Below are positions 5,954-63,505 of a stretch of DNA of 64,000 bases, piece by piece (position 1 is the first letter of the stretch; every line of letters starts with the position of its first letter). The stretch lies in contig JAKTTT010000003.1 in NCBI GenBank assembly GCA_030581615.1, positions 62,001 to 126,000 on the forward strand, written 5' to 3'. A program made the position numbers and the translations under genes. The notes under the pieces are model-generated. The model searched no databases. It saw only the letters and a program-made list of their open reading frames with translations, and was not told where the DNA came from. This stretch comes from Alloascoidea africana (taxonomy: Eukaryota; Ascomycota; Alloascoideomycetes; Alloascoideales; Alloascoideaceae).

Positions 5954-6966
5954 CTAGCTTCTCGGTCTCGTAGCGTTGATCCGAAAGATGTCCTCGTCCA
6001 CGCGGTCCGCGAGCCCTTCCAGACTGAGCAGCTCCAGCTGGATCGCTTTGATCTCCTTGGGCTCACCAGCAAGGTCACCGCGAGGGACGAACACACTCAG
6101 GACCAGGTCGTCGCCTATCGCGGCGCTTCCAATGCTCCAGCGGCGGTCGGCCTCGCCGTCCAGATAGAGCTCCGTGCTCCAGTGCCAGCTCGTTTCCAGC
6201 CGGTCCATCTTGTCCAGCACGCTGCTTCCTCCTCCACCAGCACGGTCTACCCACACGGCAGAGCAGTGCTCCACGGGCTCCACGTTGCGGAACTCGGTCC
6301 TCGCGAGGTCGAAGCTGAGGCCCGTGCCTATCGCCTTCGTGAAGGCCTCCTTGAGGCTCCACAACTGCATGAACAGCCGGAGCCTGCGATCGCGGTCGGG
6401 CTCGCCGTGCAAGGCCAGCCGCTCCGACTCCGTGAAGATGGCATCGAACTCGGGCAGCCAGACCTCGATCTCGCCCCAGGCCGCGGCGTCGCCCATGCTC
6501 ACGAGGTCGATGCCTACGAGGGCTCCCGTGTGGGCTTCTGGCGAGGTCCTCACGGCCATGACGACGGACTCGGCCGCATGGCTCAGGTTAAAGTCGAGCT
6601 GTTCTGATGCTGGCAGCTCTGATGCTGGCAGCTCTGATGCTGCCAGCTCGTTCATGTCCAGCGACGGCCGCCCTTTCTCGCCAGTCTGGAACCGAATGGC
6701 CTGCCAGCTCTTCCAAGTCACAGGCTCGGCCGGATACAGCACCGCGTGCACGATGTATCGCTGCAAAAACTGCGAACAGAGCCGTCGTTTCGCGCCCTTC
6801 TGCCGGCGGTCGAGGTCTGGTGCTGCCATTGCCGCCTTTGCGGCCTCGAACTGCCAGCCCAAATCTCCATTAGCCCCAGGATGACACCACTAACACACAA
6901 TAAAAAGCACCTTACCTCTCTCTCCGTGTTGAACAGCTCTGCCGTGTTGAAGTGGACCACGATCAT
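5954..6966 (-). CDS. LYS5: 4'-phosphopantetheinyl transferase (Lys5/AASDHPPT type)
   Basis: Two exons, 6966-6916 and 6850-5954, give 315 aa. The GTAAGG donor and CAG acceptor keep the frame. The enzyme moves the phosphopantetheine arm of CoA onto a conserved Ser of carrier domains, for example the Lys2 aminoadipate reductase of lysine synthesis. Family motifs: NLSHA (about 105-109), GIDLVS with Mg-binding Asp132, and WSLKEAFTKAIGTGL with W181, K184 and E185. The first exon carries MIVVHFNT, typical of the N-terminal strand of this family. Residues 87-100 repeat ASELP, encoded by a 15-bp tandem DNA repeat near 6606-6650, an unusual insertion before the NLSHA motif. The gene is GC-rich throughout, unlike most neighbours. 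A carrier protein other than Lys2 could be an additional substrate. Confidence 0.9.
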
Positions 6967-10890: not shown

Positions 10891-12495
10891 TTACTCATTC
10901 AACCCATCGAAAACCATGCTGGTGGCCAGATCATCACCGAATTTCTTCCTCCCAATTCTCAAATCGTTTGTAACCTGGTTATCAACATCTGCTACAAAGT
11001 GGTCCTGTCCCAACATCATCCCCAAATGACTTGTCCATAATGCCAAGGGTTGAATTTGATCTTGCTTACCGGCAAGCAAAAACGATATGATCTGTGCTGC
11101 TGATCGGCCTGTGTGTCCTGCACCTCCAGCAGACTTAATCAATGGGATGTTGTTGATGTCACCAATTGCAAAAATATGGTGATATCCTGGAACAGAAAGG
11201 TATTCGTCTATCTTGATTGCGCGCGATTCATCAATAATCTCTTTCAATTCGGTGGTCTCAACAATCGCAGTATTGGGCCGTCCACCAGAACACCAAAACT
11301 AGAAAATTACATCTGTTAGAAAAAATGAAAGTAAAAACCAAGGGTTCAAAAATATAGCTTACCGTGCAATCAGCATCGAATACATCACCCTCAGTTGTTA
11401 CAACAACTTTACGTTTCTCATCAACGGCTTTAACCCGTTTGTTCAAAACAACATTAACGCCCACCTGTTGCAAAGTCAAATGCACAAGTTTTTTAAATTT
11501 GTCAGACAAATCTTTCTCTGGTGGTAATGTTGCATGTGGATGGATTAGTGTAACGTTTTTCTCGGGGTTAATATGCTTGGCCTCTGCAGCCACTTCAATG
11601 CCAATCGCACCTAAAAGGGCTTTGTTAGGTTGTTTTTAAAATCGCCAAAATAGCCATTCTTTTACTCACCTCCTCCAATAACAACAATGTTCTGGGCATC
11701 TTTAACCATAGTATCATATCCTTTTAACCCTTTTTTAAAAGTATCAAACGAATATTCAACAGGTTCAAAAGGTGGACCTCTACTTCGTCCATTTGCAAAT
11801 ATCGCAATGTCAAATTCCTCTTCGATAAGGTCATCTTCCAATACTTTTTCCGTGGTTTCATCAATTCTTTTCAAAATGGCCTTGCTTTCGTGAACCTCGG
11901 TCACAAACCCTCGGATATGTCTCAAGTCCTTGCCAATATGTTCACGATACGAGCGTACATTGTCAAAATCAAGCCATGTCTTGGCACCAAAGTCAGCATC
12001 AATCACTGCACGCGGGAGTGCAAGCAGGTTTACAAATCCGGTTTTGGGTTCCACAAGTGTAACTTGAACCTTGGGAAAATTCTCTTGCTGCTGCTGCTGG
12101 GAGAAGAAGGTATTCAAAAAGTGAATTCCGCCGAACGAACCCCCGATCAGCAACACCTTGACCAAGGGTTTGGATCTAATTGGCTCGAAAGTCTCAATCA
12201 GCTTCTCCAAAGTTGGGCCCTGAGTTGTGCTGTCTCGCACTGGCTTTCTTCTGACAAACTTTTCCGCAGGCGTCAAGCTTAGCGATTCAATTTGCTTTGC
12301 AAGTTCTTCAGGAGTGGGCAAACCTGCAGCAGAGGCGATCTTTGTCGTGGTAACCATGGTTGAGTTCAATCTCAAATGAGAAAATGTGTATTTGTAGGGG
12401 GACAAACGGAAATTGAAACTGAACGGGTGGCCTCGTCGCTTTAATATACTTGTGCCAGGTAATGGGAAGATGCTCTTTGCAGAAAATCGAATCAT
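10891..12495 (-). CDS. AIF/AMID-type FAD-dependent NAD(P)H oxidoreductase, mitochondrial
   Basis: Three exons (12495-11670, 11610-11363, 11298-10891) encode 493 aa. It is a two-dinucleotide-fold flavoprotein. The FAD-binding loop is at about 116-123 (LLIGGSFGG), the second NAD(P)H-binding loop at about 272-280 (VVIGGGAIGIE, restored only by splicing), and a late GDIN motif closes the FAD site. The nearest families are AIFM2/FSP1 and fungal Aif1-like proteins, which oxidise NAD(P)H and reduce quinones. Residues 1-46 are rich in Arg, Lys, Ser and Phe and lack acids, as in a mitochondrial presequence; a second ATG at 12357 would give a cytosolic form. In the second intron an AG directly after the CTAAC branch site is skipped in favour of one 14 nt downstream, which is what the frame demands. 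Confidence 0.85.
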
Positions 12496-57488: not shown

Positions 57489-60248
57489 ATGTCTTCTCAG
57501 TTCCCAGGGCTGGCCTCAAGGTCTTCCTCCTCGATCACGGTGCCCTCGGCGCCTATGGCAGCAGCACCGCTGGCCATGAACAAAGCAGCATCGGCGGAGA
57601 ATTCGCTGTATCACATTTGTCTTGCTTTGAGGTCGAGACTCAGACAGATTCCTGGGATCGAACCATTTCTAGAAGCTGCGAAACATCATCCTCAAACCAA
57701 ACTCCTTGCCTATGGGGCACTACCACAAACAGTCACAGTCGACGCTGTAACCCAGATCTGTCGATTCTTCCAGCTTGGAGCGAGTCTATGCTACATCTTC
57801 AATGTCCTTTGTGGCGACCCCAACAAACTACCAGTTGTACAAAGTGATGACACAAAGTTATGTAAAAGAGGCGTTTACGACTTCCTTCAGGCCTGCAGCA
57901 CAGAGCTCTCCTACAACACTGATGAACTCTTCACATTGTCCAACGTCTTTATGATGGAAACATCGGGCCTACTGAAGGTCGTCAAAACCATCAACAGCAT
58001 TCTCGATACCATGGAGAGCCGAAATTTACTTCTTGCAAAGGGCCCTTCCATTCCTGGAGACCCGGATCTGATCGCCCTTTTTGATCAGAATGACTTGGAC
58101 GCCAACAACAAACCAAAGGAACTGGACGCCCGCGGTAAAGTTGTTCGCGAGATTTTGGAGACGGAGAGGAAATACGTTCAAGATTTGGAAATCATGCTAG
58201 ACTATAAGAATGACTTGCAAAACTCCAATTTAATAAAATACGAGTCTATTCACACGCTTTTCCCAAATCTCGACGAGGTTGTTAACGAACAACGACGGTT
58301 TCTGATTGGCGTTGAAATAAATGCGGCAATTCCCCCAAAGCTCCAACGTTTTGGCTCTTTGTTCCTTCATGCCAGTGAGGTGAATCATTTCAACAAGTAT
58401 GAGTGGTTTTCAATCAACCAAAAGAAGGCTATCGACATTATCGCTAAAGAAATTACAAAACTGCGTGCGTCATCTTCAATGATTAATCCATCATATGAAC
58501 TTCAATCGTTCCTAATTAAACCTGTACAGCGACTATGCAAGTATCCATTGCTCCTTAGAGAGCTTATCAAGTTGACCGACCCTTCATGGCCATATTACCA
58601 AGAATTGGAAGATGGCCGTAACGCAGTGATCGAGGTGACCAAAAAAGTGAATGAAACTCAAAGAAAGTTGGAAAATGCACAAGCAATTAAAGAATTGAAT
58701 GAACGAGTGGTGGATTGGAGAGGCTATGAATTACACACGTTTGGAGATTTACTACACCACGATATTTTGAGCGTTACCGAAACAACAGACAACGAGTATC
58801 ACGTTTATCTTTTTGAAACAATTATTCTTTTGTTTACGGACGTTATCCCCAGCTCTAGAAAGAATTCCACTACGCTAAGCAAAAAGAAATCCAACAGTAT
58901 TCACGCTCCTCATAATGCTGCACCCAATGCTTGTGAGTTAAAAGGCCGCATACACATCGCCAATATAAGTGCGATCAGAACGAGAGTTGTACCATTGGCA
59001 AATAAAGCAGGCGGCGGCACAGCATATTTTATCACTGTTAAATGGGCGGGAGAAACGGATGACGGAACATTCGAAATGAGATTCAAGAAAGAGGAGTCTT
59101 TTAAGCAATGGGAAGAAACACTTACTGAGCTGATAGAATCATTCAGCAAGAATAACAATGGTAATTACAAACAGGTTCCACCTCAGCTTTCGGTTAAGAC
59201 GAATATAAATCCTCAATATGCTTCTGCCTTTTCGCCCAGTGTAGAGGTGGCAATGAACGGCGGGCGTCGCTTAACTGGCGGAGGTGAATATCCTCCTGGA
59301 CATGGAAGGCAGCCGTCTGAAAAGAATATGAGATACTCTAACAATTCTAACGGCAATGTAATGCCTAAATTTGGGAAGCCCATGTCTATGCCTGTGGGCT
59401 CAAAGATCATTGAACAGTACCCTCAGATGCCTCCTCCTAACCAGCAGGCTGCGATGGATGGGTATGGATATGGCGGGTATGATAACAATGTTCCAAGGAG
59501 TAGATCAGCAAGTTCGCCAAATTTGATCACCCATCCAAATGGTACCAACAACAATGCAAGTCCAATTGGATACGCGGACCCCAATGAGAGGCCGTTACCG
59601 CAGCTTCCCCCATCTCGTATGAGATCGTTTGCTGATCTGAACCAGAATTATCAAATGCAGAGGAGTGTTTCTCAACAACCGCCGCCACCTCAGCCTCAAA
59701 TGATTCCTCCAGGACACCAATCTGCTAGCAGTGCTATGGGATTTAGCCAATATCATTCCAATGCTTCATCGGTGTCTTCGACGTCTGTTGCCTCGAACTC
59801 TTTCAGTTCCTATAATAGTGCAATATCGACCGACACGGCAATGTCCACTATAACGCCTTCTTTAACCAATTCATCAACAGTGACCACAGAGCGTCTTTCA
59901 GTTGACTCACAAACGCCGACATCAGCGGTTTATACCGATAAAGTCCGAGTTAAATTGATTTACGATAAAGACTCTTTCACCATTTTAATACCGAAGAATA
60001 TTTCGTTTCCCGATTTAAAATTACGATTGGAGAAAAAAATCAGGACCAGGTGTCAAGTGACCAATTTCCCTGCCAATCCTAGGATCCGTTACAAAGATGA
60101 AGATGGCGATTTTGTTATTGTACAATCTCAGGAAGATGTTGCCATGGCCCTGGATATGATTAAGGAGCTGGGCAGTGAAGGAAGTTTGGGAAACACTTCT
60201 CCTGAGGAGAAAATGATGGGACCTGTTTTAACCATTTGGTATTCATAG
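57489..60248 (+). CDS. CDC24: Cdc42 guanine nucleotide exchange factor Cdc24
   Basis: 919 aa, no intron. Domain order is that of Cdc24: an N-terminal calponin-homology-like Cdc24 domain (about 40-170; YHICLALRSRLRQIPGIEPFL, GVYDFLQACSTEL), a DH domain at about 216-395 (REILETERKYVQDLEIML, FLIKPVQRLCKYPLLLRELIK), a PH domain at about 415-560, a Pro/Ser/Asn-rich linker, and a C-terminal PB1 domain at about 817-915. The PB1 carries VRVKLIYDKDSF and the acidic OPCA patch DEDGDFVIVQSQEDV, which bind Bem1. Cdc24 loads Cdc42 with GTP to build polarity at the bud site or hyphal tip. BUD2, which lies immediately upstream on the same strand, controls the GTPase that recruits Cdc24. Confidence 0.97.
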   Translation: MSSQFPGLASRSSSSITVPSAPMAAAPLAMNKAASAENSLYHICLALRSRLRQIPGIEPFLEAAKHHPQTKLLAYGALPQTVTVDAVTQICRFFQLGASLCYIFNVLCGDPNKLPVVQSDDTKLCKRGVYDFLQACSTELSYNTDELFTLSNVFMMETSGLLKVVKTINSILDTMESRNLLLAKGPSIPGDPDLIALFDQNDLDANNKPKELDARGKVVREILETERKYVQDLEIMLDYKNDLQNSNLIKYESIHTLFPNLDEVVNEQRRFLIGVEINAAIPPKLQRFGSLFLHASEVNHFNKYEWFSINQKKAIDIIAKEITKLRASSSMINPSYELQSFLIKPVQRLCKYPLLLRELIKLTDPSWPYYQELEDGRNAVIEVTKKVNETQRKLENAQAIKELNERVVDWRGYELHTFGDLLHHDILSVTETTDNEYHVYLFETIILLFTDVIPSSRKNSTTLSKKKSNSIHAPHNAAPNACELKGRIHIANISAIRTRVVPLANKAGGGTAYFITVKWAGETDDGTFEMRFKKEESFKQWEETLTELIESFSKNNNGNYKQVPPQLSVKTNINPQYASAFSPSVEVAMNGGRRLTGGGEYPPGHGRQPSEKNMRYSNNSNGNVMPKFGKPMSMPVGSKIIEQYPQMPPPNQQAAMDGYGYGGYDNNVPRSRSASSPNLITHPNGTNNNASPIGYADPNERPLPQLPPSRMRSFADLNQNYQMQRSVSQQPPPPQPQMIPPGHQSASSAMGFSQYHSNASSVSSTSVASNSFSSYNSAISTDTAMSTITPSLTNSSTVTTERLSVDSQTPTSAVYTDKVRVKLIYDKDSFTILIPKNISFPDLKLRLEKKIRTRCQVTNFPANPRIRYKDEDGDFVIVQSQEDVAMALDMIKELGSEGSLGNTSPEEKMMGPVLTIWYS

Positions 60249-60815
60249 ATTTATCAGCAATATTTTTTAACAAAGATTGCAAAAAAAAAAGCAAAGACAA
60301 GACGGGCTTGAGATTTTTTTGGATAAGCTTGTTTGTTATACTATGCAAAGTTTTGTTTCCGTTTTCCTTTTTGACTTTATCTGTTTGAACATAGCTTGGT
60401 GTTTCTTCTTGTTCTCTTTTCAATATTTGGGGGAAGTTTAAAAGATAGTTCGATTGGACTGACGGCATATGGAATGATATATGAACAAAATGAGAATTGT
60501 TTGGCAATAATGATTTTTTTGTTTCTCTTTCTCTTTATTATTTTTTCTTCATACATTTAAAGGAAAATTGATTTCAAAATAGCAGAAAGAAGAAAGAATT
60601 CATTAACGAAAGAGATTTTAATTATACAAATTGGCATGATTTAGAACATGAGGCTGTAGAATGGAACGGGGAAAGTGTAGAAATGGTGTTTGCATCACTG
60701 GGGGAACCACCTCTATTGTTGTGTTACCGGAACGGGTAATCCATTTGACCTCCACCAAAACTAGAAGATTAAGGTGATGTAGCATCATAACTAACTACTC
60801 AGGCGCCGTTACACT
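60249..60815. other. Intergenic region downstream of CDC24
   Basis: 567 bp, AT-rich. It includes an A10 tract (60280-60289) and runs of T and CT (60520-60550). No gene recognised; the right end would be the promoter of the TAG-interrupted gene. Confidence 0.45.
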
Positions 60816-61964
60816 ATGATCGAACTGTGTTCTCCTTCCAAAATTCTAAATCTCTTTGGATTTAGTGGATCATTCTCGCCTAGTACAAACACAAGATGCG
60901 GCTCAACTAGTTCATCAGCACAGAGTTTAGGTACCAACCAGATAACCGCCAATTATGGGTTCAATAGTGAAGTATTCAATAGGAAAATCAATGAAAAGTT
61001 GGCTGAGAATGGCTTTCCTAAACAGCTAAATGAGCATGAATTGGAGGAACAAAACAAAAGGGCAAAAAGTAGGTAGCAAAAGAGACTTCATGAGGATCCA
61101 TGGCTAACAGATGAAGATGTAGGAGTGGTTAAAGGGCTTCCAATATTTCCAGATTGTGAAGCTGAGACTATCAATGCAAACCCTGAGGATACCACGACAG
61201 CGGTAAATGGCTCTTCTACAAAAATAGGAGTGAAAAGACGTTTAAATGACAGCACTAGTGGTTCAAAGCGGAGGAAATTAGAGCCTGGTGCTGGAAGACA
61301 ACCGGAAACACTGGGGTCTGTTGATAAAAGAAGAACGAAATCCAACATGGAAAAACGCAGAATTACGGGTAAAAGACCACGGATCGAGAGGCTAGTAAAT
61401 AAAGCTACTTTTCAAGGTGCTGGTGAAGCAAATAGGAAGCCAAATCAGAAGGCAAAGTCTGACCGAGGCCAAACACAGTGTGTGATTAGAACACCGCACC
61501 TGCCATCGTCCATAGATAAAGCAAAGATTGTCAAGGGTAATTCGACCAAGCCCAAGTCCGAATTGGGCAAGGAACAGGCAAGGATTGGGCTGAGGAAAGA
61601 GGTGACAGAAACAAGCTCGCGTGCTTCAAAACGCCTATTGCGCCAACTGGAAAAGATGCCGCCGCCTCCTTCAACATTCGCTCCTACGAAGACAGTTGCA
61701 AGTCAAACAAAGACTAAAATCAACGCGCGGACTAGACCGGCTGCCAGTTCTGCTGCTTCGCTTCACAAGCTCATGGATACCCCCGGTCCTCCTACATCAA
61801 CACCTGTGGATCTATCCAAGACACAAACAGATAAGAAAGGTGAAACAGCTTGTACTCCCAAGAGGGCAACTGCAACCAACAAAAAGCAAAACTCGTCCGT
61901 CACTCGAGGTCCCAGGACAAACCGGTCTCAGACTCAGACTCAACAAAAACGTCCGTGGAGGTGA
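60816..61964 (+). CDS. Basic nuclear-looking protein, one frame interrupted by a single TAG
   Basis: Not recognised. The frame from the ATG at 60816 is open for 382 sense codons apart from one TAG at 61074-61076. The part before the TAG (86 aa) ends in a Lys/Glu-rich helix (NEKLAENGFPKQLNEHELEE). The part after continues smoothly (KRLHEDPWLTDEDVGVVKGL), then becomes a strongly basic, Pro/Thr/Lys-rich tail with NLS-like KRRLND, SKRRK, KRRITGKRPR. After the TAG there is no in-frame ATG for 90 codons (first at 61347), so the second part is unlikely to be an independent gene. A 42-nt intron (61069-61110, GTAGGT...CTAACAG) would remove the stop in frame, but it would be shorter than every other intron here and has its branch site touching the AG. 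Read-through, a recent nonsense allele or an assembly error are alternatives. Confidence 0.5.
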
Positions 61965-62260: not shown

Positions 62261-63505
62261 TCACTTCTTGGAGTAGAGCCAAGCTCCATAAAACACGAGA
62301 GCCGTACCAATGACGATTCCAATATTCACTGGGTTTCTGAATATCCAGATACTCAACAGTAAGCTCGTAAACTTACGGATGTTTAAGACAATCATGACAG
62401 TAAGGGCAGTCGTATTTCCGGCCAAATTTTGAACGCCTCGAATGCACATGTACTGTGTGATCGTAAGCAGAAACAGATTCCAAATCTGTCTGGATATCAT
62501 TATTGGGGGAAAACCTATCAGAGACAGAATGTTGAAGTTTATGAAAGGTTCTGCTCTCCAAAGCATCATAAACTGTTCGCATATCGACCTGGAAATGAAA
62601 ATGAAAAATGGCAAGGATAGAAAATGACTAAAGAAGAGGTTTTCGCGCCAGTGCTTCCCATACATCTTGTAAGTGTTTTCGAGGTACAGTGCCATTACGG
62701 ACATGAGCACCGAGGCCGTAAATAAGGTGGCAATTCCAGCATAGAATATAACAAACTCCTTGAGCTCGTCAACTGCACCATTCTCTTCCAGCATGGCTTT
62801 TTCCACAGCTTTTTTCGTAGATGACTCGGAACTGGCCAAAGTAGCACAGATCACGCCTGCAGTCAAAACCAAAGTAGCAAACACTTGGTTTCTGCTATAT
62901 CTTTTGCCCATGATATATCCAACCACAGTGGTAGTAACTGCTCCGCCAGATCTAAAGATGATATGTAGAGGCATAGAGATGTTCAAGTTGAAAGCGATAT
63001 TGTTCATAAACGACACAATAAAGTATAAAGTGACGTTAACAATCCATCTCTTCAACGGCACCCGTGGAACTGGAATGAAGAACCTTGACTTGTTTTTCCA
63101 TTCAAAAAAATGAATGTATCCCTCGACAGCAACAAAGAAAAATTGGAAAAACGTGATAACACTATACGTGTTGGGGTAAATGTCAATGATTGACTCAGAC
63201 GCATAGACCGTTGAACAGCATCCCCCAAAGATCAGAATGCCAATCAGAATCCATTCACCGAATGAAGACTGGAAGACACCTTTGATCAGACCGTAGTGCG
63301 AAATCCTTGCCGCGATGCTCTGTGGATTTGGGTCTGGCTGTTCTGCTGGAGATGTCCTGTCTCCTCCAGCCCTGCTCCCATCCCCTGAGGAAGAAGATCC
63401 TAGGAAAGGTTTGTCTTCGTAGGAGTCAGTCGAGCTTCCAGAAATGTGTTTTTCCAGATCTTCTTGAAAGTCATCGTTACCCTTTACTTTTGGGGTAGAG
63501 GACAT
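62261..63505 (-). CDS. YEA4: UDP-N-acetylglucosamine transporter Yea4 (SLC35B family)
   Basis: 414 aa. A hydrophilic Ser/Asp-rich N-terminus of about 75 residues is followed by some ten membrane segments: EWILIGILIFGGCCSTVYASE, ITFFQFFFVAVEGYI, PLHIIFRSGGAVTTTVVGYIM, VFATLVLTAGVICATLASSE and others. The C-terminal half has the typical nucleotide-sugar transporter ending, GNTTALTVMIVLNIRKFTSLLLSIWIFRNP. This matches Yea4, which carries UDP-GlcNAc into the ER and supports chitin synthesis, and human SLC35B4. The N-terminal tail is longer than in S. cerevisiae Yea4 (342 aa). It ends with YSKK, possibly a weak ER retrieval signal. Confidence 0.93.
   Translation of the reverse strand: MSSTPKVKGNDDFQEDLEKHISGSSTDSYEDKPFLGSSSSGDGSRAGGDRTSPAEQPDPNPQSIAARISHYGLIKGVFQSSFGEWILIGILIFGGCCSTVYASESIIDIYPNTYSVITFFQFFFVAVEGYIHFFEWKNKSRFFIPVPRVPLKRWIVNVTLYFIVSFMNNIAFNLNISMPLHIIFRSGGAVTTTVVGYIMGKRYSRNQVFATLVLTAGVICATLASSESSTKKAVEKAMLEENGAVDELKEFVIFYAGIATLFTASVLMSVMALYLENTYKMYGKHWRENLFFSHFLSLPFFIFISRSICEQFMMLWRAEPFINFNILSLIGFPPIMISRQIWNLFLLTITQYMCIRGVQNLAGNTTALTVMIVLNIRKFTSLLLSIWIFRNPVNIGIVIGTALVFYGAWLYSKK

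Follow-up and report, generated by a model that had tools for sequence, protein, structure and literature searches.

Short introns whose length is a multiple of three (3n) and that hold an in-frame stop codon are already a known kind. In Yarrowia lipolytica, as reported in PMC2911113, an in-frame stop is present in 93.7% of 3n introns, a finding that the paper connects with nonsense-mediated decay, and the branch site lies on average about one base from the acceptor. The spacing between branch site and acceptor varies among yeasts (PMC2483917). A second described system is programmed read-through in yeast; in S. cerevisiae, one of the more permissive contexts is a UAG that has C at +4 and A at +5 (PMC8087045). 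The locus described here, a long open frame broken by one TAG, can be compared with both. The proposed intron over the stop is like the short Y. lipolytica introns of PMC2911113 in its GT-AG ends, its CTAAC branch site, its length of tens of nucleotides and its 3n size with an in-frame stop, and unlike them in having 14 nt rather than about one base between branch site and acceptor, in its minority donor GTAGGT, and in being poor in T. With the read-through sites of PMC8087045 the locus shares a TAG, at 61074, that is followed by C and A. We conclude that the stop lies in an ordinary 54-nt spliceosomal intron at 61069-61122, with a probability of roughly 0.85; the splice signals are present in the DNA, and from them we infer splicing in the cell.

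The window is the whole 64,000-nt stretch analyzed, positions 62001-126000 of contig C3 in a genome of 23.2 Mb in 138 contigs. Neighboring genes encode a CDC24 protein with RhoGEF, calponin, PH, and PB1 domains (57489-60248) and, on the minus strand, a UAA-family transporter (62261-63505). Taken together with the intron signals, this gene content makes a budding yeast the likely source. The frame at 60816-61964 on the plus strand has 383 codons, from ATG 60816 to TGA 61962. The initial annotation described the TAG at 61074-61076 as the sole stop between these ends, with no in-frame ATG for the next 90 codons, and both statements are borne out; the first such ATG, at 61347, starts a 205-codon open frame. 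The peptide of the frame around the TAG is QKRLHEDPWLTDEDVG. Just 5' of ATG 60816, CTAACTACTCAG at 60791-60802 resembles an intron end. A 5' untranslated region intron ending at 60802 was considered and rejected, as the sequence upstream holds no donor of a common kind. The features of the proposed gene structure are as follows.

60816..61068, plus strand: proposed exon 1, 253 nt from ATG 60816, proposed from the open frame and coding score (first half weak)
61069..61122, plus strand: proposed spliceosomal intron, 54 nt, phase 1, length 3n, proposed from donor, branch site, acceptor spacing, and kept frame
61069..61074, plus strand: 5' splice site GTAGGT
61074..61076, plus strand: in-frame TAG, beginning at base 6 of the proposed intron
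61104..61108, plus strand: branch site CTAAC
61109..61110, plus strand: AG adjoining the branch site (acceptor of a 42-nt intron), skipped in the proposed structure as is the AG of CTAACAG elsewhere
61120..61122, plus strand: 3' splice site TAG, 14 nt after CTAAC, proposed from spacing and phase
61123..61964, plus strand: proposed exon 2, 842 nt including the TGA, coding-like

Mere openness of the frame around the TAG is not striking: a scan of 264 kb of the contig (joined numbering) for stops flanked on both sides by 80 or more open codons, outside other long open reading frames (ORFs), gave 18, of which 6 are followed by 250 or more open codons. In four of these six, an ATG comes no more than 37 codons downstream of the stop, as in an ordinary gene plus a chance-open leader; just 61074 and 165987 lack one, for 90 and 127 codons, respectively. 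For coding statistics, 1,305 chance-open 60-codon windows served as the reference. The score of 61125-61346 exceeds 97.7% of these windows and that of 60816-61067 exceeds 97.3%, the first half of the latter alone being weak at 83.1%. We relied on this comparison and set aside an order-3 coding model against intergenic windows, which is unfair because stops inflate the contrast; a single-codon coding score, which separates poorly in this genome, left 60816-61073 without a verdict. Most probably, the TAG at 61074 interrupts a coding frame. TAG is a genuine stop in this genome, since it terminates 19 of 66 ORFs of at least 300 codons. A nonstandard code or altered termination was therefore rejected: eRF1 keeps its TASNIKS and YLCDNKF motifs, and together with the TAG-terminated ORFs this makes termination look ordinary.

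The proposed intron, from 61069, reads GTAGGTAGCAAAAGAGACTTCATGAGGATCCATGGCTAACAGATGAAGATGTAG; its 54 nt comprise the donor GTAGGT, GGCTAAC, and 14 nt up to and including the terminal TAG. Between 60250 and 61400, GTAGGT at 61069 is the only GTANGT, and CTAAC at 61104 is the only exact CTAAC with a YAG 11 to 25 nt on. Because 54 is a multiple of three, removal of 61069-61122 keeps the phase and takes out the TAG, leaving 91 open codons before the junction and 279 after it. Introns that bridge ORFs on this contig mostly have a GTAAGY, GTATGT, or GTACGT donor, CTAAC, and a gap of 11 to 25 nt to the acceptor, the strict search, limited to gaps of 11 to 25 nt, having given ORF-bridging matches with gaps of 12 to 25 or 11 to 25 nt and a wider search having given mostly the same range. 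The gap of 14 nt at this locus falls within it. The strict pattern gave 37 matches in 264 kb, 19 of which, including 61069, bridge 40 or more open codons on either side. Unusual decoding of the TAG is not needed, because the 54-nt intron would take it out of the message.

In the proposed structure, an ordinary spliceosomal intron would interrupt a single-copy gene. Splicing would join AAA A|GA GTG and yield a protein of 364 amino acids, basic by eye, and retention of the intron would stop translation at the TAG after 86 amino acids. Neither the two halves nor the spliced protein gave a Pfam match over the cutoff (best below it, PF09071, E values of 0.014 and 0.14), and the best E values in a PDB sequence search were 0.35 and 1. 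Among the best-scoring candidates, searches of the assembly by DNA and by the 295 residues that follow the TAG showed no second copy or allele.

The donor is consensus-like, and pattern counts suggest that GTAGGT serves as a donor across the genome. A pattern of donor, 20 to 50 nt, CTAAC, 8 to 22 nt, and YAG gave 407 matches for GTAAGT, 84 for GTAGGT, and 40 for GGTAGT, counts that list some places twice; GGTAGT, which has the same dinucleotides as GTAGGT, is the single control behind this enrichment. By that control, about half of the 84 GTAGGT matches would be real introns. A reversed-pattern control for GTAGGT gave 141 and 109, above both the 84 matches and the 40 of GGTAGT, and at face value shows no enrichment; it was set aside because reversal changes composition. 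An estimate by hand from base frequencies, with about 128 matches expected, likewise gives no GTAGGT excess, and none of the 36 other strict-pattern matches in 264 kb has a GTAGGT donor. The GTAGGT pattern is absent from 51,205 codons of long ORFs, and patterns of length 3n with any GTANGT cover 4.7e-4 of coding bases. A chance overlap of such a signal with the single stop of this gene is therefore unlikely.

The choice of acceptor was weighed separately. AGs after CTAAC 61104 that would give introns of 42, 48, 54, 57, or 66 nt all keep the frame, but only at 54 nt is the acceptor a YAG with the usual spacing, those at 48, 57, and 66 nt not being YAG. CTAACAG also occurs in introns at 11299 (in a gene for an apoptosis-inducing factor [AIF]-like protein), 215621, and 255882 (joined numbering), where acceptors 16, 16, and 23 nt after CTAAC, respectively, keep both sides open and use of the AG that touches CTAAC closes one side; at 215621, a later acceptor at 28 nt likewise keeps both sides open. 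The letters CTAACAGATG at 11299 are identical to those at the 61069 intron. The skipping in the AIF-like gene that the initial annotation had pointed out thus holds for the intron at 11299. Genome-wide, GTAAGT followed by CTAACAG gave 39 matches, of which at least C3:277635 is an intron extending to a later AG. A 42-nt intron (61069-61110) was rejected as the principal reading: its AG directly follows CTAAC, and in three contig introns with CTAACAG that AG is skipped by phase. The initial annotation was right to list a small intron as an option, an intron being favored here, and was wrong about its acceptor: only the AG touching the branch site had been considered, so that the 54-nt intron, with its usual spacing, was overlooked and the option marked down.

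A different gene structure, with an acceptor at 42, 48, 57, or 66 nt or a start at ATG 61347 without the upstream frame, is very unlikely. Its acceptors would preserve the frame, and ATG 61347 does open 205 codons. Gaps shorter than 11 nt may occur in this genome, because 132 GTAAGT matches have a gap of 3 to 10 nt, a count that has no matched control and shares several places with the set of 407; the intron at 11611 could likewise be 50 nt (gap, 4) or 59 nt. Against such structures stand the coding-like character of 61125-61346, the non-YAG acceptors, and the skipping of the touching AG. The intron at 11611-11669, on the minus strand in the AIF-like gene, can end in phase at either of two acceptors three residues apart, giving 50 or 59 nt (gaps of 4 and 13 nt); it decides nothing on the touching AG, because both acceptors fit.

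The main evidence against the 54-nt intron is its base composition, a feature that is typical of introns and not defining. The segment 61069-61122 has 20% T, versus 35% upstream and 40% downstream of the branch site in a sample of 55 hand-collected intron matches 47 to 76 nt long, of which only 2 have a score this low when set against the composition of the exons of this gene. The score of codons 61077-61124 resembles that of coding sequence, a result from 16 codons only, for which the 60-codon reference windows are a poor match. At 54 nt, the intron is shorter than every other ORF-bridging match on the contig (58 nt and more), yet inside the 47-to-76-nt range of the sample. A minimum of 57 nt for the other introns of the window, given earlier, was not reproduced; among ORF-bridging matches to the strict pattern, the shortest in the window measures 59 nt and the shortest in the 264 kb, 58 nt. 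By a rough hand estimate, composition weighs about 40-fold against the intron (exp 3.75), and the match to the signals together with the commonness of introns is a larger factor in its favor.

The same exon-like codons past the TAG would be expected if this strain carried a nonsense allele, or if sequencing or assembly had introduced an error, within a continuous frame of 382 amino acids. A sense codon could become this TAG by a single base change, and the assembly shows no second copy or allele for comparison. A phase-preserving intron signal exactly over the stop is rare by chance, and we regard an allele or error as quite unlikely.

Programmed read-through of UAG-C, giving forms of 86 and 382 amino acids, appears extremely unlikely. 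CARYYA is a read-through motif, and it is absent here, the bases after the TAG being CAAAAG. The eRF1 motifs and the ORFs closed by TAG, described above, argue against it, and the intron signal already explains the stop. The +4 C and +5 A are permissive by the S. cerevisiae contexts of PMC8087045, in agreement with the initial description of a leaky UAG-C lacking the full motif. That UAG-C-A context is the one piece of positive evidence for read-through, nonsense allele, or error; given the intron none of them is needed, and even taken together they are unlikely. It is also highly improbable that the intron, weak in its minority donor and low T content, is retained in a regulated share of messages and that UAG-C read-through on these gives a third product, 382 amino acids with an 18-residue insert.

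Placing the stop in the 54-nt intron removes a candidate recoding event and corrects the gene model. It also carries two cautions: in this genome, a lone stop in a long frame without an ATG soon after may well mark a short 3n intron, and an AG that directly follows the branch site need not be the acceptor.

With a loose pattern, 4 of the 18 stops in the 264-kb scan are crossed by a phase-preserving intron signal. The branch site is CTAAC at 61074 and 165987, CTAAT at 6890, and CTGAC at 238619, the last two signals being weaker than those with CTAAC. At 165987 (C3:227987, beyond the window), a TAA is flanked by 155 and 675 open codons, lacks an ATG for 127 codons after it, and is crossed by a 57-nt signal, GTATGG...TGCTAAC...CAG, of the same architecture as at 61074. 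At 6890 of the window, on the minus strand, a TAG flanked by 148 and 311 open codons is followed by an ATG after 20 codons, and a possible 48-nt GTGTGT...CTAAT intron covers this TAG.
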